Source of the DNA: Zoogloea sp.
Lineage (GTDB): Bacteria > Pseudomonadota > Gammaproteobacteria > Burkholderiales > Rhodocyclaceae
Assembly: GCF_028689785.1 (NCBI RefSeq)
Contig: NZ_JAQVCN010000015.1
Location: 1-64,000 of the forward strand
DNA length: 64,000 bases
Reading direction: 5' to 3'
The stretch's first letter is position 1. Each line of letters begins with the position of its first letter. The translations under genes and the position numbers were made by a program. Under the pieces are notes generated by a model, which was given only the letters and a program-made list of their open reading frames with translations, had not been told where the DNA came from and did not search any database. Below are positions 1,235-38,627 of this stretch, one piece after another.

Positions 1235-1243
1235 GAGCACACC

Positions 1244-1702: not shown

Positions 1703-1736
1703 CCTGCCCCAACCGGGTTGCAGCAGACGTCCGCCC

Positions 1737-1955: not shown

Positions 1956-2125
1956 GATCACACCTCCTGAACCCAACACCAGCTTTGATTGATAGCACAC
2001 CGGGCAGTTCATCGACAACAGGCGCAAAGCACAAAAATATGCCCCTTTTGCACGCCTAATCGCCCCATACCCGGACGGATTTCACGGATAAGCTGGCGGC
2101 AGACTCCCCACGCTTCCCGAACCCC

Positions 2126-2542
2126 ATGCACTTCCCGCCTCCAGCTGCAGGCCTGCTTTTCCTGACCGGCTCCGTCATTGCCGCGGACGGCGGCACCTTC
2201 GATGCCACCGGAAGTGTTGTCCAGATGCTGCTCGGGCTAGGCCTGGTAATCGGCCTTCTCTACGCCAGCCTGCATGCGCTGCGCCGGATCGGCGGGGGCA
2301 ACGCTCAGGGGGCGGCCCTGCTGAAGGTGCGCGGCGCAGCAGCAGTCGGCCCCCGAGAGCGGGTCGTACTGGTGGAGGTGGGCGAAAAAATCCTCGTCCT
2401 CGGGGTCTCTCCCGGGCGGGTGAATACCCTTCACACCCTCGACACGGTGGATCTCCCCTCCTCTGGCAACAACGCCTCCCAGCTTGGCGGCAAGGATTTC
2501 CAGACCTGGCTCAAGCAGACCCTCGAACGCCGCCCCCGATGA
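2126..2542 (+). CDS. fliO: FliO flagellar export-apparatus assembly protein
   Basis: 138 residues with a short N-terminal hydrophobic segment and a strong membrane helix (about 30-50, [19 protein letters not shown]), then a cytoplasmic domain with the [23 protein letters not shown] strand pattern characteristic of FliO. FliO is a scaffold that helps assemble the FliP pentamer in the export gate and is not part of the final gate. Its stop overlaps the fliP start (ATGA), indicating translational coupling. The ATG at 2126 has only a weak ribosome site, so the start is less certain than the family call. Confidence 0.87.
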
Positions 2543-3285
2543 AACACCTCATGCCCCTGCTCCGGCGCCTTGCCCCGTTGCTCCTGCTGGCTCCCCTGCC
2601 CGTACTCGCCCAGGCCATGCCAGCCCTCACCACCACTCCCACAGGGGGGGGTGGCACCCAGTACAGCCTGTCCATCCAGACCCTGCTGCTGCTCACGTCC
2701 CTGAGCTTCCTGCCGGCCCTGGTGCTGATGACGACCAGTTTCACCCGAATCATCATCGTCATGTCCCTGCTCCGCCACGCCATGGGCACCCAGACCTCGC
2801 CGCCCAACCAGATCATCGTCGGCCTGTCCCTGTTTCTCACCTTCTTCATCATGTCGCCGGTACTCGACAAGGTCTACACCGAAGCCTGGCAACCCCTGTC
2901 GGAGAACCGCATCACCTTCAATGAAGCCCTCGACCGGGCCACCGTGCCGGTCAAGGCCTTCATGCTCAAGCAGGTCCGCGAACCCGACCTCAATCTGTTC
3001 TCCAAGCTCGCCAAGACACCCCGGGTAGACAAAGCCGAAGATCTGCCCATGCGGGTGGTGATTCCCGCCTTTGTCACCTCGGAGCTGAAAACCGCTTTCC
3101 AGATCGGCTTCATCGTCTTCATCCCCTTCCTGATCATCGACATGGTCGTCGCCTCGGTGCTGATGTCCATGGGCATGATGATGATGAGCCCGGCCATCGT
3201 CGCCCTCCCCTTCAAGATCATGCTCTTCGTGTTGGTGGATGGCTGGAATCTGCTGATCGCTTCCCTTGTGCAGAGTTTCGGATAG
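2539..3285 (+). CDS. fliP: FliP flagellar export gate protein
   Basis: 248 residues. FliP5FliQ4FliR1 form the core export channel of the flagellar type III secretion system. A cleavable signal peptide is seen (about 1-25, ending near PVLAQA), followed by four membrane segments and the family signature around [20 protein letters not shown] and [12 protein letters not shown]. The methionine-rich loop near the C-terminus (SMGMMMMSP) is typical of the FliP M-gate. It overlaps fliO by 4 bp and precedes fliQ by 9 bp. Confidence 0.97.
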
Positions 3286-3294
3286 GAGCGCCCC

Positions 3295-3564
3295 GTGACC
3301 CCCACCACCGTCATTGACCTGGGTCGTCAGGCCCTGGAACTCACCCTGCTCGTCTCGGCCCCGCTGTTCATCGCGGCCCTCGCCACCGGTCTGATCATCT
3401 CCATCTTCCAGGCCGCCACCCAGATCAATGAGCAGACCCTCTCCTTCGTTCCCAAGCTGATCGCCACCTTCATCACCCTGGTGCTGGCCGGGCCATGGAT
3501 GATCACCATGATGACCGACTTCATCCGACGCCTCTTCGAGAACATCCCTGCCATGATCGGCTGA
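3295..3564 (+). CDS. fliQ: FliQ flagellar export gate protein
   Basis: 89 residues with two membrane hairpin helices, the standard FliQ size. The start is GTG at 3295, preceded by TAGGAG; no better ATG exists at the expected N-terminus. The segment LIISIFQAATQINEQTLSFVPK is the diagnostic FliQ loop and inner helix. It lies between fliP and fliR with 9- and 13-bp gaps, as expected for the export-gate operon. Confidence 0.96.
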   Translation: MTPTTVIDLGRQALELTLLVSAPLFIAALATGLIISIFQAATQINEQTLSFVPKLIATFITLVLAGPWMITMMTDFIRRLFENIPAMIG

Positions 3565-3577
3565 CCCTGGCCAGCCC

Positions 3578-4381
3578 ATGCTCACCGTCACCGCGGCACA
3601 GCTCGACGCCTGGCTGGCGCTTTTCGCGTTTCCCCTGGCCCGGGTTCTCGGACTGATCACCGCGGCACCCGTGTTCGGCAATAACGCCCTGCCCAGACGC
3701 ATCAAGCTGGTGGTGGGGCTGGCCGTGGGCATCGGCATCGCACCGGCCTTCCCCGTTGCGGCCAACGTCTCCCTGGACTCCTGGGCCGGGCTGCTCATCC
3801 TCCTGGAGCAGACCCTGATCGGCATCGCCATGGGCTTGGCCATGCGCGTGGTGTTTGCAGCACTCGACCTGATGGGCGAACTCATCAGCCTGCAGATGGG
3901 CCTCTCCTTTGCCACTTTCTTCGACCCCATGGCTGGTGGCCAGACAGCGGTCGTGGCCGAACTCCTGGCCCTACTGGCGACCCTCGTTTTCCTGTCCCTG
4001 AATGGTCATCTGGTGATGCTCGACACCCTGGCCCGGAGCTTCGAATGGCTGCCGATCGGCAGCGGCGATCTGCACAAGGAGGGCTGGATGGTGCTGGTCC
4101 GCTCGGGAAGCACGATCTTCGCCTCCGGCCTGCTGATGGCCCTGCCGGTGGTCACTGCCCTGCTCATCACCAACATCGCCCTGGGCATCCTGACTCGCGC
4201 TGCACCGCAACTGAACCTGTTCGCCATCGGTTTCCCCATCACCATGACAGTCGGCTTCGTCGTTCTGCTGCTCGCGCTCGGGCACCTGGCGCCCCTGCTG
4301 CAACGCTTCTACGACATGGGATTCGACACCATGGCGAGCATCCTCCGCACCCTTCATCAGGCCGCCCCCGGGCTGCAATGA
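3578..4381 (+). CDS. fliR: FliR flagellar export gate protein
   Basis: 267 residues with about six membrane helices. FliR caps the FliPQ helical assembly and contacts FlhB. The N-terminus (FAFPLARVLGLITAAPVFG) and the GLSFATFFDPMAGGQ region are family hallmarks. It closes the flagellar run; its stop overlaps the ATG of a sensor kinase gene, an unusual tail for a fli operon in which flhB or fliS/T is often expected instead. Confidence 0.95.
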   Translation: MLTVTAAQLDAWLALFAFPLARVLGLITAAPVFGNNALPRRIKLVVGLAVGIGIAPAFPVAANVSLDSWAGLLILLEQTLIGIAMGLAMRVVFAALDLMGELISLQMGLSFATFFDPMAGGQTAVVAELLALLATLVFLSLNGHLVMLDTLARSFEWLPIGSGDLHKEGWMVLVRSGSTIFASGLLMALPVVTALLITNIALGILTRAAPQLNLFAIGFPITMTVGFVVLLLALGHLAPLLQRFYDMGFDTMASILRTLHQAAPGLQ

Positions 4382-6219
4382 GCGCCCTGCCCATTGCAGC
4401 GCTGCTCGCCGTCACCGTAGTCGCCCTCATCGCGCTTGTCCTCGGCTGGCGCCAGCTGGGTGCGGCCCGGCGTTCCATGGCCGACCTGACCGCAGCACTG
4501 CAGGCCGAGCAGGCGCGCCGCAGCAGCGCCGAGGACACCCTCGACGCTGCGCACGAACGCTTCTCCGCAGCCTTCCACTGCAGTCCCGACTACATCACCA
4601 TCAGCCGCCTCTCAGATGGCGCCATCCTTGATGTCAACCAGGCCTTCGTCCAGCTTGTCGGCTGGTCGCGGGAAGAGTCCATCGGCACCACCTCCCTGGA
4701 CCTCGGCCTATGGCCGGTCCCCGAAGAACGGATGGCCGTGGTGGAGCGAGTCAGCCAGTACGGCGCCCTGCGCAATTTTCCCTGCACCATCGGCACCCGC
4801 GGAGGCCTGCGGAAGCACTGTCTGCTTAATGCCTCCACCGTGGAGATCGAGGGCCAGACCTGCCTCATTGCCATCGTCCGGGACATCTCCGAGCAGAAGG
4901 CCGCCAACGACGCCCTTCAGGAGAGCCAGGCAAAGTTCTCACGCATCTTCGCATCGGCACCGGTAGCCACCTCCCTGACCCGCTTGGCCGACCGCACCCA
5001 CGTGGATGCCAACCCCGCCTGGGAGAACCTCTTCGGGCTCAAGCGCAGCGCCGTCCTCACCCGTAGCACCGGCGAACTCGACTTCTGGGTAGATACCGAC
5101 GTTTACGACGATCTCTATGCCCGCATTACCCGCGACGAAATCGTGGCCCAGCGGGAGGTCCGCATCCGCCCCCGGGGTCGCGACGAAATTGCCACCTGCC
5201 TGGTTTCCGGGTGCCACCTGCGCATCAATGGCGAAGACTGCGGGCTGTGGTCCCTGGTGGATATCACAGAACTGCGGCGCGCCCAGGCGCACATCGAGGA
5301 GCTCAACGAAGGGCTGGAGCGACGGGTCGCAGAACGCACCGCCGAACTACGGAGCACCCTTGAGACCCTGCACCAGGCCCGGAACGAGTTGGTGCGCAGC
5401 GAAAAGCTGGCCGCCCTCGGCGCCCTCGTGGCGGGTATCGCCCATGAGCTCAACACACCCATCGGCAACAGCGTCACTGTTGCCACTACCCTCGCTGCCC
5501 GCACCGAGGAACTAGCCCGGGAATTCGCCTCCGGCGGGCTGCGCCGAAACAGCTTCGATGCCTTCATGGAGAACACCCGGGAAGCCGGCGAACTACTCAC
5601 GCGCAACCTGCATCGCGCCCAGGAACTAGTCCGCAGCTTCAAGCAGGTTGCCGTCGACCAGAGCAGCGAGAACCGCCGCCCCTTCGAGCTTGGCGAGATG
5701 CTCCACGAGATCGCCGTCACCCTCGGCCCGATGCTCAGGGGCAGCCACTACACCCTCGACATTGCCCCGGCAGAAGCACTCCAGATGGACAGCTACCCCG
5801 GTGCCCTCGGGCAGATCCTCACCAATCTGATCAGCAACGCACTGACCCATGCCTTTGCCGGACGCCCCGATGGCCACATCGCCGTCACTACCCAGGCGGG
5901 CTCCGACAGCGTCCGCATCAGCGTCACAGACAACGGCCACGGAATCGACAGTGCCAGCCTGCAGCGCATATTCGACCCCTTCTTCACGACCCGCCTCGGC
6001 GAAGGAGGGAGCGGGCTTGGCCTGTACATCGTATACAACCTCGTCACCCGTACCTTGGGCGGGCAGATTGACGTTCAGAGCACCCCAGGCAGCGGCACCC
6101 GCTTCACCCTGACATTACCCTGCACGGCCCCTGCCGACGGAGCCCACCAGGACGCCATGGCCATTCCGGTTCATGATCGGCCCTCGCTTAACTTCAAGGA
6201 CTTCGGGCCGATAATCTGA
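4378..6219 (+). CDS. PAS-domain sensor histidine kinase
   Basis: 613 residues. The ATG overlaps the fliR stop (ATGA), so the longer frame reaching back into fliR is rejected. Order: one N-terminal membrane helix (about 5-23), a short coiled coil, two PAS domains (about 65-185 and 190-310), a coiled coil (about 315-350), a HisKA-type dimerisation helix with GIAHELNTPIG (phosphorylated His356), then a HATPase_c domain with N box (NLISNALTHA), DNGHGI and GSGLGLYIV. No receiver is attached, so the partner is probably the adjacent HD-GYP receiver protein. The ligand is unknown; PAS domains suggest a redox or small-molecule signal sensed in the cytoplasm. Confidence 0.88.
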   Translation: MSALPIAALLAVTVVALIALVLGWRQLGAARRSMADLTAALQAEQARRSSAEDTLDAAHERFSAAFHCSPDYITISRLSDGAILDVNQAFVQLVGWSREESIGTTSLDLGLWPVPEERMAVVERVSQYGALRNFPCTIGTRGGLRKHCLLNASTVEIEGQTCLIAIVRDISEQKAANDALQESQAKFSRIFASAPVATSLTRLADRTHVDANPAWENLFGLKRSAVLTRSTGELDFWVDTDVYDDLYARITRDEIVAQREVRIRPRGRDEIATCLVSGCHLRINGEDCGLWSLVDITELRRAQAHIEELNEGLERRVAERTAELRSTLETLHQARNELVRSEKLAALGALVAGIAHELNTPIGNSVTVATTLAARTEELAREFASGGLRRNSFDAFMENTREAGELLTRNLHRAQELVRSFKQVAVDQSSENRRPFELGEMLHEIAVTLGPMLRGSHYTLDIAPAEALQMDSYPGALGQILTNLISNALTHAFAGRPDGHIAVTTQAGSDSVRISVTDNGHGIDSASLQRIFDPFFTTRLGEGGSGLGLYIVYNLVTRTLGGQIDVQSTPGSGTRFTLTLPCTAPADGAHQDAMAIPVHDRPSLNFKDFGPII

Positions 6220-6272
6220 CATTGCCCAAGTCACCGGGACAGGCCCCTGTGCCCCGTCCCCCCGGAGCCCCC

Positions 6273-7319
6273 ATGGCCATCGCCATCGTTGATGACACCC
6301 CCCTCAACCTGACCCTGATCCAGGCGCTGGTCCGCAAGCTGGCCCCGGCCGGCACCGAGATTGTGTGCTTCACCTCACCGCTGGAGGGGCTCAGATGGTG
6401 TGAAAGCCACGAGGCCGACCTGATCATCGTCGACTACATGATGCCCGACCTCAACGGCATCGAATTCATCAAGGCCGTGCGCCAGTTGCACCCGGCCGAC
6501 GTAGTGCCCATCCTGATGGTCACTGCAGCCCACGAGAAGGAAGTTCGCTACCAGAGCCTCACGGCCGGCGCCAATGACTTCCTGACCAAACCCATCGACC
6601 GCCACGAGTTCGATCCCCGAGTGCGCACCATGCTGGCCCTGCGCAGCAGCCACACCCGCCTGCGCACCTGGAACGACGACCTCCAGGCCGAAGTCCGCCG
6701 CCAGACCGCCGACATCATTGCCCGCGAGCGCGAGACCATCGCCCGCCTCGCCCGCGCCGCAGAATTCCGCGATCCGGAAACGGGCGCCCACATCCTGCGC
6801 ATGGCCCACTACTCCGAGCTCATCGCCCAGCGCTTGGGCCTCAAGCCGGAACTGTGCGAGCGCCTCCTGAGTGCAGCCCCCATGCACGACGTCGGCAAGG
6901 TTGGCACCCCCGACCACATCCTTCTCAAGCCCGGGCGCCTCACCGATGAGGAAATGGACATCATGCGGCGCCACGCAACCATCGGCTACGACATCCTCAA
7001 GGGCTCCTCTTCACCGATGATCCAGCTGGCTGCTGAGATCGCCCTCACCCACCACGAGAAATTCAACGGCAGCGGCTACCCCGCCGGGCTGGCCGGGGAG
7101 GCGATTCCCCTGGCCGGGCGCATCGTCGCCGTTGCCGATGTCTTCGACGCCCTCACCTCCGCACGCCCCTACAAGCCCGCCTGGGACATGGAACGAGCCA
7201 TCGACTTCCTCAAAGCCGAACGCGGCCAGCACTTTGACCCAGCCTGCGTCGACGCCCTGCTCGACCGTTGGGCCGACGTACTGGCCGTGCGGGAACGTTT
7301 CCAGGACGAAGAGGAATGA
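6273..7319 (+). CDS. Response regulator with HD-GYP c-di-GMP phosphodiesterase domain
   Basis: 348 residues from the ATG at 6273, which has GGAG 5 bp upstream; an upstream TTG at 6222 would add 17 residues of no recognisable structure. The receiver domain (about 1-120) has the acidic pair (VDD) and phospho-acceptor Asp54 (LIIVDYMMPD). The HD-GYP domain follows with HD at 205-206 (MHDVGK) and HHEKFNGSGYP, the residues that bind metal and c-di-GMP, so hydrolytic activity is expected. Placed between two kinases with near-zero spacing, it probably converts their phosphorylation state into lower c-di-GMP, favouring motility. Confidence 0.9.
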   Translation: MAIAIVDDTPLNLTLIQALVRKLAPAGTEIVCFTSPLEGLRWCESHEADLIIVDYMMPDLNGIEFIKAVRQLHPADVVPILMVTAAHEKEVRYQSLTAGANDFLTKPIDRHEFDPRVRTMLALRSSHTRLRTWNDDLQAEVRRQTADIIARERETIARLARAAEFRDPETGAHILRMAHYSELIAQRLGLKPELCERLLSAAPMHDVGKVGTPDHILLKPGRLTDEEMDIMRRHATIGYDILKGSSSPMIQLAAEIALTHHEKFNGSGYPAGLAGEAIPLAGRIVAVADVFDALTSARPYKPAWDMERAIDFLKAERGQHFDPACVDALLDRWADVLAVRERFQDEEE

Positions 7320-10300
7320 TCAGCCTCCTCAGTCGCCTGGCGGACCGCGCGGGGCTCCACTCCCTCGGCCAGCAGCTCACCCTGCTGTTCGCCCTGCTGC
7401 TGACCCTCTCCGTCTCCGCCTACTCGCTCTACACCGGTTTCGACCAGGCCAACTACGTCGAACGCCTCGAACGAGCCCACGCCGACGAACTGACCCAGCA
7501 CCTGGCGGCAGCACTAGAGCCTCACGTTGCCAGCAACGACCGTCGCGGCATCACCGAGCACCTGCAGGACATCTCCAGCAACTCAGCCATCCTGCGGCTA
7601 ACCGTCACCGACCGGCAGGGCAACCCGCTGGCCAGCGTGCGGCGGACCACCGACACCGCGCCCCTTACCGCAGAACCGGACAGCGACACCCCCATTCCCC
7701 TGCCGGAGCAGGGGCGCCAGGCCGGCAGCGTCGAAGCCCAGGCCGGTAGCTCGGTAATCGAGGCCTGGGTCGGCATCGGTGACAAGGCCCCCATCGGCTG
7801 GCTGCGCAGCGAGATTCATCCGGCTGCAGCCAACGACAGTCTGCAGCACATTCTCATGGACAGTGTCCTGGCCGGCCTGCTGACACTGCTGATCAGCACC
7901 GCGGCCATCCTGATCTTCCTGCGTCCTCCCCTGCGCAGCCTGGAGCGTGCCACCGCCTTTGCCGAAGCCATGGAGAACTGCCAGGGCGACACCCTCAACG
8001 AACCCACCTCTGTCGTCGAAATCCGCAAGCTTGTGGACGCCCTCAACTGGACCTCCATCCGGCTCTTCGACGGCCAATCCGCGCTGGCAGCCAGCGAACT
8101 GCGCAACCGCGCGATTGCCGAGGCAGCCCTCGACTGCATCATCACTGTCGATGCCCTCGGGCGCATTCTCGAGTTCAACCCGGCCGCCGAGCGCACCTTC
8201 GGCATCTCCCGGGCCGATGCACTGCATCAGCCGGTCTCCGAGCTTCTGTTCCCCGAACGGCTGCGTGACACCCACTCCGCCAGGCTGCGCGAGCTTCTCG
8301 AATACCCACCCTCCGACACCCAACGGCAACGCATCGAGACCCTGGCCCGACGCTACAACGGCGATGAGTTTCCAGTGGAAATGGCCCTGGTCACCGTGGA
8401 CGGCGGCGGCAGCCGCCTGATCACCGCCTACCTGCGGGACATCAGCGAGCGCAAGGAGACGGAGCGGATCATGCGGCAGGCCAAGGAGTCGGCCGAGGCC
8501 AACAGCCGCTCCAAAAGCGACTTCCTGGCCAACATGAGCCACGAGATCCGTACGCCCATGAACGCCATTCTGGGGATGACCGACCTGGCCCTGGAAACGG
8601 AACTTGACGAGGAACAGAAGGAGTACCTGACCTTGGTGAAAAGCTCCGCCAACTCCCTGCTCGGCATCATCAACGACATTCTCGACTTCTCGAAGATCGA
8701 GGCCGGCAAGCTCGACTTTGAGCACATCGACTTCAGCCTGCGGGACTGCGTAGCGCTGGCCGTCCGGACCCTCCAGCAGCGGGCCGCCGAGAAGGACCTG
8801 CTGCTCAGCGTCCAGGTCGCTCCCGAAGTCCCCGACAGCCTGATCGGCGACCCTCACCGGCTGCGCCAGGTCCTGATCAACATGATCTCCAATGGGATCA
8901 AGTTCACTGCTGAAGGCAGCGTCAGAGTCATCGTGCAGGCAGGGCCGGTGATAGAAGACGGGGTTTCCATCGAATTCAGCATTCAGGACACGGGGATGGG
9001 CATTCCCCCCGAAAAGCAGGGGCTGATCTTCGAGGCCTTCTCCCAGGCAGATACCTCCACGACACGGCGCTACGGCGGCACCGGCCTCGGGCTTACCATC
9101 AGCGCCCAGCTGGTCCAGGCCATGGGCGGCCAGATCAGTGTGGACAGCCCCCCCGGCGCAGGGAGCACCTTCCGCTTCACGGCCCACTTCGAACTGGGCC
9201 AATGCACGGCCGGCACCGATGAGCGCGCCCACCTGGAAGGCCTGCCGGTACTCATCACCGTGGACAACCCCTCCGAGCGCGCAACCCTCATCGAACTCCT
9301 GAGCCAGTGGCGGATGGCCCCCACCTGCGCACCCGACGCCAGCACCTGCCTGCGCGAGCTGACCCAGGCTGCCAGCAACGGCCTGCCCTACCGGGTGGTC
9401 ATCCTCGGTACCCAGCTACCCGATGCCGAGGGCTTCTCCCTGGCCGAGACGATTCCCCAAACAGGCATCCCTCAGCCCTGCGTGATCATGCTGGCCGGGG
9501 AAGGCCGCCGCGGCGACGGGGCCCGCTGTCGGGAGCTGGGCATCGCCGCCTACCTGCCCATGCCGGTTGAGGCCTCCGACCTGCTCAACGCCATCCTGCT
9601 GTCGGTCGACCCCCTCGACGAGCGCCCGCTGATCACCCGCCACACGCTGCGCGAGCAACGCCGCCAGCTGCGCATCCTGCTGGCAGAGGACAACGTGGTG
9701 AACCAGACCCTGGCCATGCGCCTGCTGGCCAAGCTGGGGCATCACGTGGAGGTGGCGAACAACGGCGAAGAAGCGCTCGCCCTGCATGCCGCGGGGCGGT
9801 TCGATGCCATCCTGATGGATGTGCAGATGCCCGTGATGGGCGGCTTTGAGGCCACCGTCGAGATCCGCGGGCGGGAAGCCGCGGGCATGCCCTATACCCC
9901 GATCATCGCCATGACCGCCCACGCCATGAAAGGCGACCGGGAACGCTGTCTGCAGGCCGGCATGGACGGCTACCTGTCTAAACCGGTACACGCCCCCGAT
10001 CTGGTGGAAGTGCTGATTCACCACACCGGCCACAATGACCCAGCCCCGGTCACTGAATCCCCCCCTGTGGGCGGCCCGGTGTTCGATCGGGAACAGGTGC
10101 TCGCCAACCTGGGCGATGACGAAGATCTACTCGCCCAGCTGATGGTCATGTACAGCGAGGACGAACCCCGTCTGCTGGCCGACGTCGAGGCCGCGGTCAC
10201 CGCGGGTGATGCTGAGGCCCTCCATGGAACGGCCCATGCACTGAAGGGTGCGGTATCCAACTTCTGCGCCAGCCGGGCCCAGGCCAAGGCTCAACAGCTC

Positions 10301-25092: not shown

Positions 25093-25169
25093 GGTGATGT
25101 AGCTCAGATGGTTAGAGCGATGGATTCATAACCCATAGGTCGGCGGTTCGACTCCGCCCATCACCACCA
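25093..25169 (+). tRNA. tRNA-Met (CAU), elongator
   Basis: A 77-nt cloverleaf with encoded CCA. The acceptor strands GGTGATG and CATCACC pair over 7 bp, the D arm is GCTCAGATGGTTAGAGC, the anticodon CAT is at 25127-25129, and the T arm GGCGGTTCGACTCCGCC is intact. The first base pair is G-C, so this is the elongator rather than the initiator type. It is the integration site of the downstream element; its 3' half from 25122 is duplicated at 38580-38627. Confidence 0.96.
25122..25169 (+). repeat. attL: 48-bp tRNA-Met 3' half
   Basis: Identical over 48 bp to 38580-38627, spanning from the anticodon arm to the encoded CCA. The base before it differs (T here, C at the right copy), as does the base after. 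This is the expected footprint of a tyrosine-integrase recombination into a tRNA gene whose function is restored by the incoming copy. Confidence 0.93.
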
Positions 25170-27788: not shown

Positions 27789-28049
27789 TCAGCCACGAAC
27801 TGCGATATCGCTCTCCCGGCGGATTCGTGCCGCCAGGCCTTCCGCATCCGCTACCCTGGTCTTCCCCCGCTTCATTGCCGTCTGGCTGCCGATCTGCTGC
27901 TCCACGTAGCCCAGCACATCCCGTTCCATCAGCACGTAGGCCCGGCCGATCCGCGCGGCTGGGATCTTGCCGTCATTGATCATCCGCCCCAGGGTGACCG
28001 GGTGGATCTTCATCAAGGCAGCGGCGCCCTGCAGGTCGAGGGTGGTCAT
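27789..28049 (-). CDS. Excisionase/MerR-like helix-turn-helix protein, 86 aa
   Basis: 86 residues from the ATG at 28049, which has AAAGGAG upstream and overlaps the preceding stop; the longer frame to 28262 is rejected. LDLQGAAALMKIHPVTLGRMINDGKIPAARIGRAYVLMERDVLGYVE is a winged helix-turn-helix of the excisionase/HTH_17 family, in which the wing (IGRAYVLMERD) follows the recognition helix. A basic tail follows. It could promote excision or regulate the operon. Confidence 0.8.
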   Translation of the reverse strand: MTTLDLQGAAALMKIHPVTLGRMINDGKIPAARIGRAYVLMERDVLGYVEQQIGSQTAMKRGKTRVADAEGLAARIRRESDIAVRG

Positions 28050-28225
28050 TCGGTTGCTCCTTTCTTCGTGGTGTCCGCTTCGGCCTCGCGCTTCAGCTTG
28101 CGCCCGTGCATCACCTTGAGTGACCCCACCAGCTTCTTCCGCTCCTCCTGCGTCAGCCTGGCGAGCGCCGCCCGGCCCTGCTCGATCTGATTGCCGTTCA
28201 TCGGGATCTTGAATCTTTCCGCCAT
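28046..28225 (-). CDS. Small basic element protein, 59 aa
   Basis: A 59-residue frame (MAERFKIPMNGNQIEQGRAA, then LARLTQEERKKLVGSL and KVMHGRKLKREAE) fills the space between the virion-like gene and the HTH gene. GGAGGTG lies 9 bp before the ATG, and the stop overlaps the next ATG (ATGA). Basic and helical; function unknown. It continues the pattern of tightly coupled small genes in this element. Confidence 0.72.
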   Translation of the reverse strand: MAERFKIPMNGNQIEQGRAALARLTQEERKKLVGSLKVMHGRKLKREAEADTTKKGATE

Positions 28226-28228
28226 CGA

Positions 28229-30136
28229 TCAATTCACCTCCGTTGCGCCCGTTCCGTCCCACTTCACACGCCGACCGTCGGCCAGCACATAGACCATCCC
28301 GGCCTTGCGCTGGGCCTTGTCGGCCGGCATGGGATTGGCCTGCTGTCCTGATGGCTCCGCCGCCTGCCCAAGCCCTGCCGCCCGCAGCATCGGCTCCGCC
28401 CAGGTCTCAAACGGAACAGGCTTTCCGTCGGCAATAGGCTGGGATGCTCCGTACTGCTTGCCCAGTTCGGCAATCAGGTTCATCCGGGCCTTCACCATTT
28501 CGCTGTCAGCTCTCGGAGGCTCCCGCCCCGACAGATCCCGGATCTGCTGCGCAATCGCGCTGCGCTCTTCCGGGGTCTTGGCGGCTTCGTAGCGGGCCTG
28601 CAGTTCTTCCTGGCGTCGCGCGGCCCGGGTCTGGAAGCCCTGCGCTTCGCGCTTGAGGCCAAGTTCCTCGTTTGCAATGCCCTGGCGGTTCAGCGAATCT
28701 TGCACCTTCATTGCAAGCTGTCGTTGATCATTCTCCTGCTGGTCCGCGGCTTCCTGGCGCCCACTCATGTAGTTCAGCGCGGCAATTCGTGATGCGGCCT
28801 TGTTAGAAAAGAGCAATTCCCGCACAGCCTCATCCGGCGTCCGCTGACGGAACCCGATGCCGTTGCCGCCGTTAAACGCGATCTCGTCGCGCAGCGATGT
28901 CATACCGGCCCGGATCTGGTTTTCCCGCTGCAGGATGCCCATCACGTCGGGGCCGCCGATCCCGTTGGGCTGAAAGCCCAGGCCCGGCCCCGACGGCGCC
29001 GCGCCGGCCGCATCACCCCGCATCGACGCAGGCCGAAATCCTCCCACCGGGTTGCCCTTCATCTCAGCCACGGCCTGGCCCGGGTCGATGTTGGTGAAGA
29101 GCGGCGACTTCCCCGGCTGGTTGATGCGCTGCACGCCGTTGGTGTTCTCAACGGGCGTCACGGTGTAGGGAACGGGGCCGGCGTCCATGTAGCTCTTGGC
29201 AGGATCGGTGACGGGCTTGGTGTCAAGATTTGCTGCCGTGGCGGCGGGCGTTGTCGGGGCTGGGGCTGCGGGCGCGGGAGTCGCCGCCGGGGCCGGGGTC
29301 GGCTTGGAGTCCTCGATCCCAAAAAGCCCTTTTCCAAACTCGACCGCCGGCTGCATTCGCCGCGCCGTCGTGTTCATGCTGTCTTCCATCGCCGCGGGGA
29401 TCATCGCTGCCGTCCCGCGCAGGGTGGCGCCGGCGGCCTTCGCATAGTTCCCCTTGTCGGCGTTCTCGTTCCAGGCGTTACCGATCTGGCCGGCAACCAT
29501 CCGGGTCTGGCTTCCGTCTGCCAGCAAGGAGGCGCCCGGGACTGCCCGGGATGCATCGCCGATCCGCGTACTCATGTCCGCATTGGACTGGGCGTAGATG
29601 TTGCCGGCCCGCTCCGCCTGGTTGCCCGGGTAGGTGTTGGTCGGGCTGGTGGCAAGCGGGCGCTTCTTGTTCGGGTCTTCGACCATGCCGCCGTCGGCAA
29701 AGAACAGCTCCCGGGTAGATGCGTCGTCGCCGTCACTGCCGCCTTGCTCGCCGGCGGGGGTGTGGGTCGCCGCCTTCATGCCCTCCAGCACCTGCACGCC
29801 GATGGCGTGGACCTGCTCCGGAGAAAGGCGAAACTCGCCGTTGCTCAGATTGACGGGCACCTTGGACGTGGGGCCGAAGCCCATTCCCGGAATGTTCGGC
29901 GCCTTGGGCTTGCTGCCAGGGCGGAACCCTACCGCGCTCAGGGCTTCCGGGCCGATCTGCTGCGTGCTGTCCGCCGGCATGATGTAGGTGCCTTCCGGAA
30001 CAGAAGTCTTCACCGAGTCGGAGGTGCCCGTGCCCGGGCCACGCACCAGCCCGCCGGCCCGGAAGCCCCGCGCGGAAGCGTCATCAGGGGGTGCGGCGGG
30101 TGGGGCTTGATGGGGGCGTTTCTGAAATCCGTACAT
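28229..30136 (-). CDS. Virion-associated/structural-like element protein, 635 aa
   Basis: 635 residues from the ATG at 30136 (GGAG 8 bp upstream). Near residues 25-50, GGLVRGPGTGTSDSV and EGTYIMPADSTQQIG form the glycine-rich motif seen in phage tail, internal-virion and tape-measure-like proteins. A Pro/Ala-rich linker (about 285-315, TPAPAATPAPAAPAPTTPA) and a long helical region with REAQGFQTRAARRQEELQARYEAAKTPEERSAIAQQI follow. The C-terminus ends in a small YVLADGRRVKW domain. In podovirus-like phages such proteins are ejected with DNA. It is the only structural-type gene seen in the element. Confidence 0.65.
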   Translation of the reverse strand: MYGFQKRPHQAPPAAPPDDASARGFRAGGLVRGPGTGTSDSVKTSVPEGTYIMPADSTQQIGPEALSAVGFRPGSKPKAPNIPGMGFGPTSKVPVNLSNGEFRLSPEQVHAIGVQVLEGMKAATHTPAGEQGGSDGDDASTRELFFADGGMVEDPNKKRPLATSPTNTYPGNQAERAGNIYAQSNADMSTRIGDASRAVPGASLLADGSQTRMVAGQIGNAWNENADKGNYAKAAGATLRGTAAMIPAAMEDSMNTTARRMQPAVEFGKGLFGIEDSKPTPAPAATPAPAAPAPTTPAATAANLDTKPVTDPAKSYMDAGPVPYTVTPVENTNGVQRINQPGKSPLFTNIDPGQAVAEMKGNPVGGFRPASMRGDAAGAAPSGPGLGFQPNGIGGPDVMGILQRENQIRAGMTSLRDEIAFNGGNGIGFRQRTPDEAVRELLFSNKAASRIAALNYMSGRQEAADQQENDQRQLAMKVQDSLNRQGIANEELGLKREAQGFQTRAARRQEELQARYEAAKTPEERSAIAQQIRDLSGREPPRADSEMVKARMNLIAELGKQYGASQPIADGKPVPFETWAEPMLRAAGLGQAAEPSGQQANPMPADKAQRKAGMVYVLADGRRVKWDGTGATEVN

Positions 30137-30291
30137 GGGGCTGTCTCCGCGAAATGTCTCTGCACCCATTTTTCGGCAGTGAGCCAACAGCTCCAATCCC
30201 CAGAAGGGGGAGTGGCTGATTCCTGCTGTGCATGGCTGCGTGTCGCTTCATGCAGCATCGGTGGCGAGATGCGCTCTTGGCCTGCTCTGAA

Positions 30292-30854
30292 AGGTACGGC
30301 CGTGCCGTAACCTTGCCCTCTGTAACCTTTGTTTCCGTGGATACCTGACTGGATACCCTGCCCCTGGATACCGGGCCGGAGGGATCGCGACCTGAAGTTT
30401 TCTGAAGTGGTGAGCTCTCTCCGGCGGTTTCAAAGGGTGCGATTTGCTGTTACATCGGCTGTTACAGCCTGATCTGTTACGGCGCCTTTCCATGGCAACC
30501 GAGTTGGCAACCAGGGTTTTGGCAACCCGCGTTTTCGTGGAAACCGCCTTGGAAACCTCCGATTTGGAAACCGTGCTTTCCATGGATACGAAGCTGGATA
30601 CCGGCGCCTTGGATACCGCGACGCCTGGACCATCGGGCTCGAAGCTGGTGCTGGCCTGTGCATTGGCGCCGATGATCTGCATCGGCCGACCAATCACCGA
30701 TTCGGTGCGAACCGGGCTGCGAACCTCTTCCCTGCGAACCGCTTTCTTGAGGGCCACCGATCCCGTGGTAACCAGCCTGGTAACCGCGCATCTGGTAACC
30801 GTCGATTCCTTGCGTACCACACTGCGTACCGCCAGCTTGCGTACCTGATCCGCC
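30292..30854. repeat. Modular array: nine 45-bp modules, each repeating one 9-mer three times (spacers 3, 6, 9 bp)
   Basis: Read on the plus strand, each module is W-3-W-6-W-9, where W is NTG-XXX-ACC. Module starts are 30292, 30337, 30447, 30492, 30537, 30582, 30705, 30765 and 30810. The triplet XXX is constant within a module but changes between them: GTA, GAT, TTA, GCA, GAA, GAT, CGA, GTA, CGT. The first module is degenerate, and TTA lacks ACC. Gaps after modules 2, 6 and 7 exceed 45 bp; the gap after 6 holds a CCGATG/CATCGG hairpin (30669-30685). The 9-bp inter-module spacers often end TTTCC. On the minus strand the modules spell Gly-X-Gln..Gly-X-Gln.Gly-X-His, but one module gives a stop codon three times. 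No known repeat family recognised. Confidence 0.9.
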
Positions 30855-30875
30855 CCGATTCAGGTCCGGAATCGG
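30855..30875. repeat. 7-bp inverted repeat at the array edge
   Basis: CCGATTC (30855-30861) and GAATCGG (30869-30875) immediately abut the last module of the array, between it and the HGGxSTG gene. It may bound the array as a transcript hairpin. The other flank (30137-30291) shows no gene. Confidence 0.5.
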
Positions 30876-30905: not shown

Positions 30906-31220
30906 TCATGGGCTTCGCTTCGCCTTCGGCAGAAAACCGTTCATGGCAGCCCTGGCCCGGCCCGCATCGGACGTGGGGCCGGTGCTGAGCCCACCATGGA
31001 GCTTGCACCGGCCGTTCTCCCAAAGGTCCGTCCGCTTGCAGGGTGTGCCGGCCCGAGTCTTCGCACCGCAGGTGAGCCCCTGAAGATCCTCGGGGAGCGC
31101 AGGGAAAGCCGGGGGCGGATGCCCGTAGCCCCGGGCTCGCCAGGCTGCGCCGATCTCCGCACTGGCTTGGCAATAGGCCCGCCAGCGGGCGCGGCGTACC
31201 TTGTTCAAATCGATGCCCAT
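30906..31220 (-). CDS. HGGxSTG-motif zinc-binding element protein, 104 aa
   Basis: 104 residues. GGAGG precedes the ATG. The core reads LTCGAKTRAGTPCKRTDLWENGRCKLHGGLSTGP, with three cysteines and a histidine that can bind zinc and the HGGxSTG signature. Such small proteins are common in prophages, often near packaging genes, with unknown biochemical role. It lies upstream of the modular array, and then of the virion-like gene, on the same strand. Confidence 0.82.
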   Translation of the reverse strand: MGIDLNKVRRARWRAYCQASAEIGAAWRARGYGHPPPAFPALPEDLQGLTCGAKTRAGTPCKRTDLWENGRCKLHGGLSTGPTSDAGRARAAMNGFLPKAKRSP

Positions 31221-31717: not shown

Positions 31718-31875
31718 CAGTGTGCCTCCTGAGTCTGTTGCATCGTGGTGCCTTGGTGGAATCGTGGGTTCGTGAAAATCGGGCCGCTGGTGCGTTTTTC
31801 TGGGGTGGGGTGCGGCATGCCCATGTCCGACCCCTCAAAAATCGAAGGGCGGGGCTTTCTCGTCGGCCCGGTCAT
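31717..31875 (-). CDS. Small element protein, 52 aa
   Basis: 52 residues (MTGPTRKPRPSIFEGSDMGM and PIFTNPRFHQGTT) coupled at both ends: its ATG overlaps the dnaB-like stop (ATGA) and its stop overlaps the next ATG. AAAGGA lies 9 bp upstream. Proline-rich and probably unstructured. Coupling is the main evidence that it is translated; function unknown. Confidence 0.6.
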   Translation of the reverse strand: MTGPTRKPRPSIFEGSDMGMPHPTPEKRTSGPIFTNPRFHQGTTMQQTQEAH

Positions 31876-33251
31876 GCTTCGAATCCTTTTGATCGCCCCG
31901 GCTTTCTGGGGTGAGTCGATTCGGGGTAGGGGCCGTCGAAGTCGGAGAACCGCATCCGCGGGCCATCCAGGGCCAGCAGGCATTCACCGGTCGGGCCGTT
32001 GCGGTTCTTGCGGATCAGCAGGTGGGCGATGCCTTCCCACTCCGGGGCGTCCTTGGGCATCGACTCGCGGTGGAGCATTCCGACAATGTCCGCGTCCTGC
32101 TCGATTTCGCCCGAGTCCCGCAGGTCGGCCAGTGTGGGCTTCTTGTCCAACCGCCCCTCGCTGGCCCGGTTGAGCTGGGCCAATGCAATTACCGGCACCC
32201 GCAGTTCCTTGGCCATGGCCTTCAGCCCACGGGAGATGCTGCCCACCTCTTGCGCCCGGTTGTCACCGGTGCCGCGCATCAGACCCAGGTAGTCGATCAC
32301 CACCAGCCCCAGTCCGTGGGTGCGCTGGATGCGTCGTGCCTTCGCCCTGACGTAGGGGACGCCCACGGCCGGCGTATCGTCGATGAACATGGGCCAAGCC
32401 ATCGAGGCGCCCACGGCTGCGCTCATGCGGTCCCAGTTGTAGCGGTCATCTGTGCCGGCACGCATTTCCTGCACCGATACGCCGGATCGGGCCGCCAGGA
32501 TGCGGGCGGCTATCTCGCGGCGGGTCATCTCCAGCGTGAAGAACGCCACTGGCGTGCCGCCGGCTGCGACGTGGGCGGCGATGTTGCAGCCCGCAACGGT
32601 CTTGCCGACGCTGGGGCGGGCGGCCACGATCACCAACTGCCCGGGCTCCAGCCCGCCGGTCATCTCGTCGAAGCGGTGAAAGCCGGTTCCAAGCCCGGCG
32701 AGCTTTCCGCCATGCTCCATTCGCGCCTGAACGTCGGCGACCACATCACAGAGCGCATCCTGCAGGCGGATCGGCTCTGTGCCGGTGTGATCGACAAGGG
32801 CCTGCATGCTGGCTTCGGCCTCCGCGGCGATTTCCGCAGGGGACCGGCCAGCAGGCGTGGCGCAGGCGGCCAGAATGTCGGCTGCCGTCTGCTGCAGTCC
32901 ACGCAGGGTGGCCCGCTCCCGGATTGTTCGGGCGTAGGCCTTCGCGTTGCTGGCGAGGAATCCGCAGTTCCCCAGCTCCCCCAGGTAGGCCACGCCGCCG
33001 GCGCGGTCTGCCTCGCCCCTGGCTTCCAGGGCGTCGAAGACCGTGAGCAGATCCACTGCTCGGCCAGAGTCGTGAAGAGCCTTGGCCGCGGCGAAGATCG
33101 TTCGATGGTCGGCCCGGTAGAAATCCGCAGCACTCACGGCGCCTTCGATGCGGTCGAGCACTCGCGCTCCATCAACCAGTATGGCGCCAAGCAGGCCTTG
33201 CTCCGCTTCGATGGAGTGGGGCGGCAGGTTGCGCAGGTCGGGGGCGCTCAT
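31872..33251 (-). CDS. Replicative DNA helicase, DnaB type (element-encoded)
   Basis: 459 residues from the ATG at 33251, which shares a base with the preceding stop; an upstream GTG is less likely. The DnaB N-terminal domain begins LPPHSIEAEQGLLGAILVD. The RecA-like core has Walker A ARPSVGKTVAG, Walker B VVIDYLGLM and the DLRDSGEIEQDADIVGMLHR block. A hexameric helicase that, with the adjacent replication protein, would open and copy the excised element. It is shorter than and distinct from chromosomal DnaB in the N-terminal collar. Confidence 0.93.
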   Translation of the reverse strand: MSAPDLRNLPPHSIEAEQGLLGAILVDGARVLDRIEGAVSAADFYRADHRTIFAAAKALHDSGRAVDLLTVFDALEARGEADRAGGVAYLGELGNCGFLASNAKAYARTIRERATLRGLQQTAADILAACATPAGRSPAEIAAEAEASMQALVDHTGTEPIRLQDALCDVVADVQARMEHGGKLAGLGTGFHRFDEMTGGLEPGQLVIVAARPSVGKTVAGCNIAAHVAAGGTPVAFFTLEMTRREIAARILAARSGVSVQEMRAGTDDRYNWDRMSAAVGASMAWPMFIDDTPAVGVPYVRAKARRIQRTHGLGLVVIDYLGLMRGTGDNRAQEVGSISRGLKAMAKELRVPVIALAQLNRASEGRLDKKPTLADLRDSGEIEQDADIVGMLHRESMPKDAPEWEGIAHLLIRKNRNGPTGECLLALDGPRMRFSDFDGPYPESTHPRKPGRSKGFEA

Positions 33252-34084
33252 CAGATGCACCCCCGAAACATGGCTTCCCGCTGAGCCGGTACCGAGGGCG
33301 TGGCCGCCGCTGGCTCATTTTCATACTTGCCTTCGAGGATCTTCACGAAGTTCGAAGGCGTGACGATCCACTCCAGATCGATCTCAAACGGACGGCGCCC
33401 TGGCGTCGAGGTCTTGCCCGTCAGAAAGTCGGACTCGGCGATGTAGCCAAAGAACTTGGCCCACCAGTCGAGGCTCTGGCGCTTGGCTTCCTCCTTCCAC
33501 CTGGCGCGGAGCTTTGCCTTTCTGGTGTCGTTCCAGGATCGGACATGACGGCCTGTCGGCAGAATCTCGTGGTACAGGTCCATGATCGCCTGATGCGGGC
33601 AAGGGTCGGCAGCTTTGCTGCTGACAGGGGGCTCGTCCCCTACCTTGGTCTGTTCACTGGTCTGTTCTATGGTCTGTTCTTTGCCCGTTCCCGATTCCGG
33701 TACCCGCAAGCGTGTACCCGATTCCGGTACCCCTCCCGTCCCCGATTTCGGAACCGTTCCGTAATTCGGAACCGTTCCGGTTTCGGGTACCGTTTCCGCG
33801 TCAATCAAGTCGGGAACCGTGATTGCGTAACGGGTCGATTTCGAGTGACCGCCTTTGCCATCTTTGCGCAGCCAGCCCAAGCGCTCGAGGTCGGTGGTTG
33901 CCGTCGAAACGTGGCAGACGCTCATGCCGCAGCGTTCAGCGATCTGTGCACGCGACGGCCACACGATGTCCGTGTTCTTGTTTCGGAACGAGAAGAGCAC
34001 ACCAAGGACGCGCATCTGCTTGAGCGTCAGGCGCTTGTCGGCCCAGACTTCAACCGGGACTATTGAAAAGATCGCCGTGGCCAT
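33251..34084 (-). CDS. Phage-type replication initiation protein with N-terminal HTH
   Basis: 277 residues from the ATG at 34084. The N-terminus (VEVWADKRLTLKQMRVLGVLFSFRNKNTDIVWPSRAQIAERCGMSVCHVSTATTDLERLGWL) is the helix-turn-helix of phage O/DnaA-N-like replication proteins. A linker follows with five VPxxGT-type repeats (VPETGT, VPNYGT, VPKSGT, VPESGT twice). The C-terminal helical domain (ALRARWKEEA-like, WWAKFFGYIAESDFLTG) is probably the helicase-loading part. Its stop is fused to the dnaB start, the classic initiator-helicase pair. Confidence 0.82.
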   Translation of the reverse strand: MATAIFSIVPVEVWADKRLTLKQMRVLGVLFSFRNKNTDIVWPSRAQIAERCGMSVCHVSTATTDLERLGWLRKDGKGGHSKSTRYAITVPDLIDAETVPETGTVPNYGTVPKSGTGGVPESGTRLRVPESGTGKEQTIEQTSEQTKVGDEPPVSSKAADPCPHQAIMDLYHEILPTGRHVRSWNDTRKAKLRARWKEEAKRQSLDWWAKFFGYIAESDFLTGKTSTPGRRPFEIDLEWIVTPSNFVKILEGKYENEPAAATPSVPAQREAMFRGCI

Positions 34085-34086
34085 CG

Positions 34087-34248
34087 CTACAGGCCCGCCT
34101 TCCTTGCAGCCCGAAGGCATGCCTGGGCGTACTCGACCGGAGACAGCCCAGCTCGGCGAAACTCTGCCTTCAGAGCCTCATAGCGCTGGACGGCCGCATC
34201 CACTGACCGAGCCAGCTTGACCCTCTTTCGCTTCGGGGGCGCCCTCAT
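34087..34248 (-). CDS. Small basic element protein, 53 aa
   Basis: 53 residues (MRAPPKRKRVKLARSVDAAV, then YEALKAEFRRAGLSPVEYAQACLRAA) with a basic N-terminus and two helices. ATGA overlap with the upstream HTH gene and a 2-bp gap to the replication gene show translational coupling. Possibly a small DNA-binding accessory protein; no family recognised. Confidence 0.65.
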   Translation of the reverse strand: MRAPPKRKRVKLARSVDAAVQRYEALKAEFRRAGLSPVEYAQACLRAARKAGL

Positions 34249-36397: not shown

Positions 36398-36685
36398 TCA
36401 GGCGGTCAGCGCCTCAATGACGGCGGCCGGGTTATGCTGAATGACGTTCAGCAGGACCAGCGCGGGGCCATGCGGGGCGCGGTCGCCTCGCTCCCAATGA
36501 CGCAGGGTCGCCGTCGAGAACCCGAAGCGGGCGGCGAACTGCTCCTGCGTCATGCCCACCTTGGCGCGAAGAGCCTTCACGTCCACCGGGCGTGGGCGGT
36601 GGATGCGGGTTTGCGGTGCGCGGCCTTCGGCGTGCTCGATGGCTTCCAGCAGGCCACGCTTGATGCTGTCGAATGCGGTGCTCAT
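36398..36685 (-). CDS. XRE-family antitoxin (HigA-like)
   Basis: 95 residues from the ATG at 36685. The HTH_3 domain reads VKALRAKVGMTQEQFAARFGFSTATLRHWERGDRAPHG in the C-terminal half, with a short N-terminal helix (FDSIKRGLLEAIEHAEG) likely to clamp the toxin. The start overlaps the toxin stop (ATGA). Toxin-first order is typical of HigBA-like modules. It would repress its own promoter and may stabilise the element. Confidence 0.85.
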   Translation of the reverse strand: MSTAFDSIKRGLLEAIEHAEGRAPQTRIHRPRPVDVKALRAKVGMTQEQFAARFGFSTATLRHWERGDRAPHGPALVLLNVIQHNPAAVIEALTA

Positions 36686-37023
36686 GGTCGTTTTTTCCTC
36701 CATGCTTCGATAAGTATTCCGACCAGTTCCGCAAGCTCGTTGCGCTCGCCCTTGGTCAGATTGGCGCGGTCGCCCTTGGCGAACAGCGTCAGCAGGTACA
36801 GCGGCATGCCTTCATCGTGGAAGTAGTAGATGATTCGCACACCTCCGCTTTTTCCCTGCCCGCCGCGTCGCCATCGCAGCTTGCGCACGCCTCCCGTGCC
36901 TTCCATCAAATCACCGTCCTTGGGGTGTTCTGCCAAGTAACGGATGACGTCTTGCCGCTCTCCCTCGCTCAGAAGCTTGTCGGCAGTGCGGATGTATTCG
37001 GACAGTTCAGCAACGGTCAGCAT
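36682..37023 (-). CDS. RelE/HigB-family toxin
   Basis: 113 residues. VRKLRWRRGGQGKSGGVRIIYYFHDEGMPLYLLTLFAKGDRANLT is the RelE/ParE fold core of the subgroup that pairs with short XRE antitoxins. Members usually cut mRNA on the ribosome. It lies between the integrase and the antitoxin gene, so it travels with the element. Strands and C-terminal helix appear intact, suggesting a functional toxin. Confidence 0.87.
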   Translation of the reverse strand: MLTVAELSEYIRTADKLLSEGERQDVIRYLAEHPKDGDLMEGTGGVRKLRWRRGGQGKSGGVRIIYYFHDEGMPLYLLTLFAKGDRANLTKGERNELAELVGILIEAWRKKRP

Positions 37024-37057: not shown

Positions 37058-38404
37058 TCATGCTTTCACCACCCGCAGCCCGGCCGGTTGTTCTTCCCTC
37101 GGCTGCTCGATGCCGGCCTGTTCCAGAATCCAGCCTTCAATCTTCGCGTGCCACATGCGCAGCAGGTCGAGCGGACGGCGGCGGTAGTGCTTCTCTGCGG
37201 TGGCACTGGGCTTGTGCCCCATGATTTGCGCAACGATGCCGGCGGGCACCTCCACCCACTCGGCCAGGGTGCCAAACGAACGGCGCAGGCCGTGGATTGA
37301 GAGGGGCGGAAGGCCTGCTGCCAACAGCGCCTTGTTGTGGGCAATGCGTGGCTCTTGGAGCCTTCCATCTTCGGCCGTGGTACTGGAGAACACCCACTCA
37401 TTCCGGCGCGGCAGAGACGCCAGCAACGCGGCCACGTAGGGTGTCAGCGGGATGGTGCGCTCTCCCTCCACCTTGTCCTTGATGGTGATGGACTTCCACT
37501 GAAAATCCACGTCAGCCCACTGGATGCCCGCCACCTCCTCCCGGCGCGCTCCAGTCAGCAGAGCCGTTTGCAGATACGCGGCGATGACGGGGTTTTGAAT
37601 CTGGCAGACGTGCGAGAACCACGCCGGCAACTGCTCCCGCTGAAGGCAATCATCCTTTGCCGCCTTCTTCGGCAGCGCTTCCTTCGCCTGGCGGGCGGCG
37701 CAAGCATCCGCATGGACTTGGCTGCGGTACTCGGGACGGTCGGCGCACCAATTCAGGAAGGCGCGTAGCAGCCCAAAAGCAAGCCGGGCGTGGGTCGGGC
37801 GGCGGTCGGCTTCCTCCTCCAGCCACACGCGCACCCGGTCGGCGTCAATCCGGGCCAGGGGAAGCAGCAGCAGCGGGCGCAGGGCTCCGGGCAGGGTCAA
37901 ATTGCTTTCCCCCTTCCTGCGGCCTCTGGTGCGCAGCTCGCCCCCTTCCTTGCTGACATTCTCATGGTCACGAATGTGCGGCTCGCTCCACTTGGCACGG
38001 CGGGCCTCGATGTAGGCATTCCAGGCCTCCAGTGCAGGCGATTCGATGCGCTCGGCTTCGCGCTTGGCGGCCTCGTCAGCGGCCTTCTTGGCTTCGATGG
38101 CGGCCAGCTTGTCAGCTTTCTCCTGGCGCGGGTCGATGCCCTGGTCAATCAGCGCTTGGAGGCGGCGGGCCTCGGTGCGGGCGTCGTCGAGGTTCCACAC
38201 CTTCACGTCGCCGATGGTGACGCGCAAAGGGGCCTTGTGGAGCTTACCGGCGAACACGAAGGACTTTGCCCCGGCGGGTGTCACTCTGACGCTGAGTTGC
38301 TTGGGGTCGTCATCGAACACATAGACCGCTTGGCTGCCAGTCGGTGGGGCCAGTTTGCGGATGCGGTCGAGGGTCAAGCGGATGCGTGAAGTGTCGCGGG
38401 CCAT
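37058..38404 (-). CDS. int: Tyrosine-type integrase
   Basis: 448 residues from the ATG at 38404 (AAGGAG 8 bp upstream); the longer frame runs into the terminal repeats. An N-terminal arm-binding domain of the P4-integrase type (QLSVRVTPAGAKSFVFAGKLHKAPLRVTIGDVKVWNLDDAR) precedes a core-binding domain and catalytic domain: Arg in LLTGARREEVAGIQW, HGLRRSF, and the nucleophile Tyr in AEKHYRRRP. It sits 175 bp from attR. It would recombine attP with the tRNA-Met 3' end. Confidence 0.95.
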   Translation of the reverse strand: MARDTSRIRLTLDRIRKLAPPTGSQAVYVFDDDPKQLSVRVTPAGAKSFVFAGKLHKAPLRVTIGDVKVWNLDDARTEARRLQALIDQGIDPRQEKADKLAAIEAKKAADEAAKREAERIESPALEAWNAYIEARRAKWSEPHIRDHENVSKEGGELRTRGRRKGESNLTLPGALRPLLLLPLARIDADRVRVWLEEEADRRPTHARLAFGLLRAFLNWCADRPEYRSQVHADACAARQAKEALPKKAAKDDCLQREQLPAWFSHVCQIQNPVIAAYLQTALLTGARREEVAGIQWADVDFQWKSITIKDKVEGERTIPLTPYVAALLASLPRRNEWVFSSTTAEDGRLQEPRIAHNKALLAAGLPPLSIHGLRRSFGTLAEWVEVPAGIVAQIMGHKPSATAEKHYRRRPLDLLRMWHAKIEGWILEQAGIEQPREEQPAGLRVVKA

Positions 38405-38441
38405 GGTCGTTGCTCCTTGGTGCCGGGAGCAAAAGAGATTC

Positions 38442-38463
38442 CATTGCTCCCCCATTGCTCCCG
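38442..38463 (+). repeat. Right copy of terminal tandem 10-mers, putative integrase arm sites
   Basis: Tandem CATTGCTCCC pair identical to 25226-25247. Nearby are a further TTGCTCC (38409-38416 region) and an inverted GGGAGCAA (near 38425-38432), all within the integrase leader, so integrase binding could also autoregulate int. Two CCCATCAAC copies (38476-38484, 38549-38557) lie further towards attR. Confidence 0.6.
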
Positions 38464-38579
38464 ATTCTAGCAACACCCATCAACATCGTTCAATGCAGAA
38501 AGAGCACACAATCCATATTTTTCAATTAGATATGTGATTTTATGAACCCCCATCAACGCCGAAAAATGCGATCACCTTC

Positions 38580-38627
38580 GGATTCATAACCCATAGGTCG
38601 GCGGTTCGACTCCGCCCATCACCACCA
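38580..38627 (+). repeat. attR: 48-bp tRNA-Met 3' half
   Basis: Exact copy of 25122-25169, lacking the 5' half of the tRNA, so it encodes no functional tRNA. By the usual logic this is the displaced original chromosomal tRNA 3' end. Confidence 0.93.

Follow-up and report, generated by a model that had tools for sequence, protein, structure and literature searches.

Predicted recognition sites for several phage small terminases, arrayed in an integrated element of Zoogloea

The element and its array

The window, a 64,000-nucleotide stretch of a Zoogloea sp. contig (NZ_JAQVCN010000015.1, positions 1 to 64,000), contains a 13.5-kb element inserted at a tRNA-Met gene and bounded at 25122 and 38627. 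The features of site-specific integration are present: 48-bp att repeats at the tRNA gene, and an integrase (Table 1). The element also has its own replication genes, encoding a DnaB-like helicase and an O-like protein. No terminase, portal, or capsid gene was found among the open reading frames scanned in the window (ten in one scan, nine in another). An AlpA-type regulator beside the integrase is a defining PICI feature; the excisionase- or regulator-like helix-turn-helix gene of this element does not adjoin the integrase, and an array-bearing virus record, L469, has an excisionase-type regulator.

Two further genes recur in other array-bearing loci. The late-type gene that adjoins the array has counterparts adjoining the arrays of L613, L614, and L615. 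The small protein with the HGGxSTG motif is also found in L010, L614, L615, L643, L645, and L646; a tblastn search with this protein against phages returned no match. As side observations, the O-like gene contains two short tandem repeats (33646-33680 and 33736-33786), possibly origin iterons, and two small genes at 36398-37023 resemble, by reading only, a toxin-antitoxin pair.

Table 1. Features of the integrated element and modules of its array (window coordinates)
Feature	Position	Strand	Basis or remark
att repeat, left; 3' part of tRNA-Met (25093-25169)	25122-25169	+	48-bp exact repeat
Excisionase-like helix-turn-helix protein	27789-28262	-	protein-family scan
Late-type gene, 655 aa, adjoins array	28229-30196	-	phrog_11341; weaker tape-measure match
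Degenerate GTA-like module	30292-30327	+	two of three copies, left flank altered; read from sequence
Module GAT, TGGATACC three times	30338-30372	+	perfect
Degenerate "TTA" module, TGTTAC three times at 0/12/27, without ACC	30448-30482	+	read from sequence
Module GCA, TGGCAACC three times	30493-30527	+	perfect
Module GAA, TGGAAACC three times	30538-30572	+	perfect
Second GAT module	30583-30617	+	one mismatch, in first copy
Module CGA, TGCGAACC three times	30706-30740	+	perfect
Module GTA, TGGTAACC three times	30766-30800	+	perfect
Module CGT, TGCGTACC three times	30811-30845	+	perfect
HGGxSTG small protein, phrog_6177	30906-31220	-	family match and motif
DnaB-like replicative helicase	31872-33260	-	protein-family scan
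Replication initiation O-like protein	33251-34120	-	protein-family scan
Tyrosine integrase	37058-38476	-	protein-family scan
att repeat, right	38580-38627	+	48-bp exact copy of 25122-25169

The preliminary description, made from the sequence alone, proposed nine modules, each with its own triplet in three copies at offsets 0/12/27. Six of these are perfect: an 8-mer, TG-XXX-ACC, stands three times at those offsets, all on the plus strand (30338-30845), its copies direct and 12 and 15 bp apart. A seventh has a single mismatch, and the remaining two are degenerate. The triplets GAT, GCA, GAA, CGA, GTA, and CGT are thus borne out by perfect modules, whereas the module listed as TTA lacks ACC and is not the phage TTA word, TGTTAACC. 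The other degenerate module, GTA-like (about 30294-30327), has two copies of the form [C/T]GTAACC, with TG changed to CC or CT; its first copy reads GTACGG and lies 13 rather than 12 positions before the second. The base preceding the 8-mer varies freely, as described. The proposed 45-bp period holds for four consecutive modules (30448-30493-30538-30583) and for the last pair (30766-30811); elsewhere the steps are 110, 123, and 60 bp.

Simulation of 200 Markov-1 windows of 64 kb yielded no such module. The minus strand of the window has no perfect module. Just to the right of the CGT module, at 30855-30875, is an inverted repeat, CCGATTC...GAATCGG; the same repeat adjoins the CGT module of L028/L613.

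A triple site inside a phage terminase gene

A scan of IMG/VR for three spaced copies of TGGAAACC led mainly, among the matches listed, to one gene on the opposite strand. This gene matches phrog_1206, the terminase small subunit (TerS), with E = 3e-70. The triplicated word sits just after the helix-turn-helix, and does so in many phages, whose TerS proteins form a subgroup of phrog_1206. Further scans (CGA alone, then NNT, NBA, NNS, and HAA) provide a census that is a sample; the words in terS among the matches listed number seven: GAA, GAT, GCA, GTA, TTA, CGA, and CGT. HAA words at the triple spacing gave no match. Same-word triples with other words also occur, at least five among the matches listed (TCC twice, TGA, GCC, and ACC); the four that were inspected lie outside terS. 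A GTA triple is also present in an unrelated repetitive protein (L392, L459).

The site is regular within the subgroup. Three identical in-gene copies were found in 280 of 300 unique TerS frames, most of which had been retrieved via the DNA word itself. The fairest check comes from 80 loci retrieved for their peptide similarity to seven TerS proteins: the exact site is present in 79 (51 GAA, 28 GAT), and the other locus has a single mismatch. This set represents the GAA and GAT classes only, the helix itself served as one of its two search peptides, and the DNA scans had also matched 50 of the 79 sites. Beyond the subgroup the site is lacking. A phrog_1206 search detected the family in 11 of 300 genomes of the order and in 5 of 369 of the class; the exact triple site was present at one of 13 loci from the order, several of them weak matches, and at none of the five from the class. 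The triple site therefore marks only a subgroup of phrog_1206, and distant family members are without it. Fifteen named phage records span this range: six have the exact site (HK639, GF-2, and ST11-VIM1phi8.1, CGT; Cruim01, GAA; PSTCR7lys, GCA; USP_25, GAT), two have one mismatched column (SEN34, PseuP_222), three have two (AP1, FBPa19, ENT1), and four have no site.

The array in the window matches this in-gene site in its words, their triplication, and the 0/12/27 spacing. All six of its perfect words are among the seven terS words (probability for random words, 9e-8). On the plus strand of the window, 20 of 23 occurrences of the seven words lie inside the array; on the minus strand there are six occurrences, none inside. 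The notion that each module holds a separate word in triplicate thus acquires a counterpart: each word corresponds to one phage small-terminase class.

A helix-word code

Each word is paired with the TerS recognition helix. The classes are GAA, [ST]HTAINKR; GAT, THGA[IV]NKR; GCA, SHTAIQK or [ST]HQAISKR; GTA, SH[VA]A[IV]; TTA, SHV[AST]I; CGA, [TS][DE]TAIRKR; and CGT, [ST]EGA[IV]RKR. Two simple rules describe this correspondence. Helices with HT or DT go with A as third base of the word, and those with HG or EG with T; TA accompanies V (or A) in the helix, GA accompanies N, CG accompanies R, and GC accompanies Q, S, or G. Read with a simple helix pattern, one of the 61 CGT genes has SVVTISKK, and seven of the 280 genes gave no helix.

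Helix and word change jointly, even between TerS proteins whose backbones are up to 92.5% alike. A tree of 164 TerS genes with 47 word changes was built without the helix and word parts; on it, independent pairs agreed in 9/9, 9/9, 9.9/10, and 5/5 comparisons, the last being too few to reach 0.05, and none went against the pattern. (The rows of the tree were reduced from 300 to 229 by dropping genes with no exact site and genes with short ends and identical cores, and then to 164 by dropping near-identical ones.)

The pattern concerns the DNA and not only the encoded protein. Val-Ser results from GAA as well as from GAT, and Val-Arg from CGA as well as from CGT. Within each pair the words are synonymous at the codon level, so that conservation extends to the DNA word itself. 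In the 274 genes with the Val-X motif, a single hexamer per helix class occupies all three places, and the other Val codons of these genes are spread: GTG, 698; GTC, 643; GTT, 598; GTA, 380.

Structure prediction for one TerS gives a helix-turn-helix made up of helices 8-17, 22-29, and 33-43 (block-mean pLDDT 86-91 for residues 11-50), the third of which would start with the variable residues 33, 34, and 37. The model is weak outside the helix-turn-helix; a fold search with it, and a sequence search of the PDB, returned nothing significant. The covariation of helix and word suggests that TerS recognizes the word. In lambda-like phages, TerS binds R sites via its recognition helix, and helix and site set packaging specificity (PMC4669245, PMC9026076). 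By analogy, the in-gene triple site may be the packaging recognition site of this subgroup.

Arrays and their carriers in other genomes

Arrays with several words outside terS were found in elements of the same genus (L613, L614, L615), in loci from Buttiauxella, Rhodocyclus, and Sterolibacterium (L264, L267, L268), in virus records (L010, L451, L461, L469, L476), and in a further pair of genomes from the order (L633 within L655, L634 within L654). Loci were assigned as non-terS for the absence of a terS frame over the site, and several of them fall into groups of near copies: L389/L397/L417, L290/L319, L614/L265, and L461/L469/L476. The L654 and L655 arrays each hold six of the seven words, TTA included, mostly in one to three copies and sometimes outside the 0/12/27 order. 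The 0/12/27 arrangement with changing triplets recurs, although not in every module: mixed-word, incomplete, or differently spaced modules occur in L267, L634, L635, L633, L010, and L613.

Two further regularities emerge. Among 11 loci examined, the eight with at least two exact modules have all of them on one strand. What 39 modules outside terS have in common is a T-rich box and three copies of TGxxxACC; other parts of terS are not conserved in them. The T-rich box and module together measure about 45 bp, which may account for the array period.

Nineteen virus records contain a module outside terS, in three of which (L047, L071, L117) the triple has another spacing. TerL, the large terminase, was not found in any of the 12 records below 40 kb, and was found in all seven of 55-73 kb. 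The smaller and larger records alike may be fragments, and the TerL-bearing ones may represent a prophage beside a satellite. Within the stretch fetched around TerL, a TerS profile located terS beside TerL in one of the seven large records; here GCA is the word both in terS and in the non-coding module.

The gene content of several carriers suggests mobile elements. Along with its array, record G483 (L646, L476) contains a primase, a tape measure (phrog_1107, E = 2e-174), and, by reading, an integrase-like protein. The array of L655 is accompanied by an integrase, primase, and tape measure, and that of L654 by an integrase, a tail assembly protein, and a helicase/primase-like protein. In the window and in L613, L614, L615, L451, L643, L644, L654, and L655, the modules are antisense to an adjoining late-type or tail gene, much as the phage site is antisense to terS, an orientation compatible with directional packaging. 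BLAST of the window array region against phages gave no match, nor did BLAST of two relatives' arrays against E. coli genomes and, for one of them, also against phages.

Some neighboring genes deserve mention. Tape-measure genes are present in the array-bearing elements L646 (15377-18088), L461 (2384-5107), L655 (7117-8796), and L451 (6201-8312), as if setting tail length in hijacked particles; L461 also encodes a Neck1-type protein. In L615, a relative of the window element, a gene for 2544 residues (1160-8791) adjoins the late-type gene, and its product matches virion structural protein and DarB-like antirestriction families. A small protein of related appearance is encoded near arrays or modules in L010 (580-1047), L264 (1451-1927), L319 (2822-3259), and L417 (3869-4288), those of L010 and L264 matching phrog_949.

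A satellite with packaging sites for several helpers

These observations suggest a model in which the array is a set of predicted binding sites for several phage TerS specificities, borne by a phage satellite and starting packaging by a helper phage. We assign this reading a probability of roughly 0.7. From the sequences we read the array and its words, the gene content, the triple site in terS, and the match of helix to word; from these we infer that TerS binds, that its binding starts packaging, and that the element is mobilized.

In this model, a subgroup of phages would have its recognition site (the T-rich box, then TGxxxACC three times at 0/12/27) inside terS, with the xxx word paired to the first residues of the TerS recognition helix. 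The satellite, with integrase and replication genes and with no terminase found, would bear one module per TerS specificity, several in all. Growth of a matching helper in the cell would supply TerS for the corresponding module; once bound there, TerS would recruit the large terminase, and packaging of satellite DNA into helper particles would start. A cos-type phage would require a cut site too. The more general claim, that this terminase subgroup has a natural seven-word recognition code in its own gene and that separate satellite lineages carry most of the words and can be packaged by any of several phages, we consider probable, if somewhat less so.

Of the roles suggested earlier for the array, a packaging signal and a recognition array are thus the ones that the evidence favors; for a diversifying array, no mechanism that diversifies the words was found. 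Several observations count against the model: the restriction of the triple site to a subgroup of phrog_1206; the GTA triple in an unrelated protein; the irregular arrays; and TerL in seven of the 19 module-bearing virus records. Moreover, none of 23 host-genus genomes matched phrog_1206, which leaves the element with no known resident helper.

Other readings

The main rival shares the predicted TerS binding and differs in its consequence: the array would be a decoy that titrates helper TerS, blocks phage packaging, and thereby protects host or satellite, while starting no packaging itself. A cluster of numerous sites with several specificities would serve such titration, and PICIs are reported to block helper packaging via TerS (PMC9026076). 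A decoy needs no common direction, however, yet the exact modules of an element share one (tandem growth could also yield this); and integrase, replication, and tail genes are present in several carriers, as would fit mobilization in particles. We regard the decoy as unlikely as the sole explanation, though it could operate alongside packaging.

Far less probable is that the modules are remnants of captured terS pieces, without present function. The spacers do resemble terS (0.38-0.39, against 0.26 for shuffled sequence, in a measure that includes the T-rich box), parts of the window minus-strand frame resemble the terS repeat region, and some arrays contain decayed modules. Yet conservation outside terS does not reach the adjoining terS codons and stops at the box and the TGxxxACC copies, and six different intact words in one array favor upkeep.

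Slightly less probable again are iterons, at which a protein of the element itself would act in replication or partition. Direct repeats are commonly found near replication genes, and the window element has DnaB and O-like genes. But the word varies by module and fits the phage terS set, the spacing is that of terS, and the replication genes of the carriers are unrelated, the window having DnaB/O where G483 and L655 have primases.

A repetitive protein-coding region is the least credible reading: although a 190-aa minus-strand frame spans most of the array, with seven modules in one frame, the 110-bp step in the window breaks it, the CGA copies of L010 lie 13 and 12 apart, and no peptide common to distant arrays was noticed. 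The earlier judgment that simple protein coding is unlikely stands for the array, but not for the phage triple site, which lies inside an intact terS.

Relation to known packaging systems

Some components of the proposed multi-helper packaging model are of known kinds: covariation of TerS helix and site among a few lambda-like specificities, and satellites with one site. The cosB regions of lambda, 21, and N15 also have short R sites, three in many of these phages, bound by a helix-turn-helix TerS; there, however, the R sites are upstream of terS, with R2 in inverted orientation and with an intervening IHF site (PMC4669245, PMC9026076). In contrast, the phrog_1206 subgroup has three direct copies inside terS, with seven words among the matches listed. 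Nor does the array have the lambda cosB layout (R3-I1-R2-R1, with R2 inverted), as the copies of each module are all direct.

Gram-negative PICIs are likewise integrated satellites without a full set of structural genes that redirect helper TerS, but they rely on the protein Rpp and on a single cos that has no R repeats (PMC9026076; see also PMC6739421). The window element instead has a DNA array with putative sites for several TerS classes. SaPI and P4-type satellites carry the pac or cos site of their helper, to our knowledge for a single helper specificity each. The window element resembles them as a satellite that would bear helper packaging sites; it differs in having several specificities in one array. 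Among the titles and starts of abstracts listed from an open-access library, we found no description of a seven-word terS code or of arrays that cover as many as six of the seven specificities.

If the model is correct, a satellite bearing sites for several terminase specificities would not have to be matched to a single helper and could use several. The helix-to-word code would be readable for this small-terminase subgroup, and a phage terS would then predict which satellites could be mobilized; the array itself would be a sequence signature for finding such satellites.

The seven words may have an eighth companion, GTT. The array of L469 contains TGGTTACC at 0/13/26 with one mismatch (1990-2023), and the distant TerS of phage ENT1 (L631), with the helix NHATILKR, has two GTT copies.
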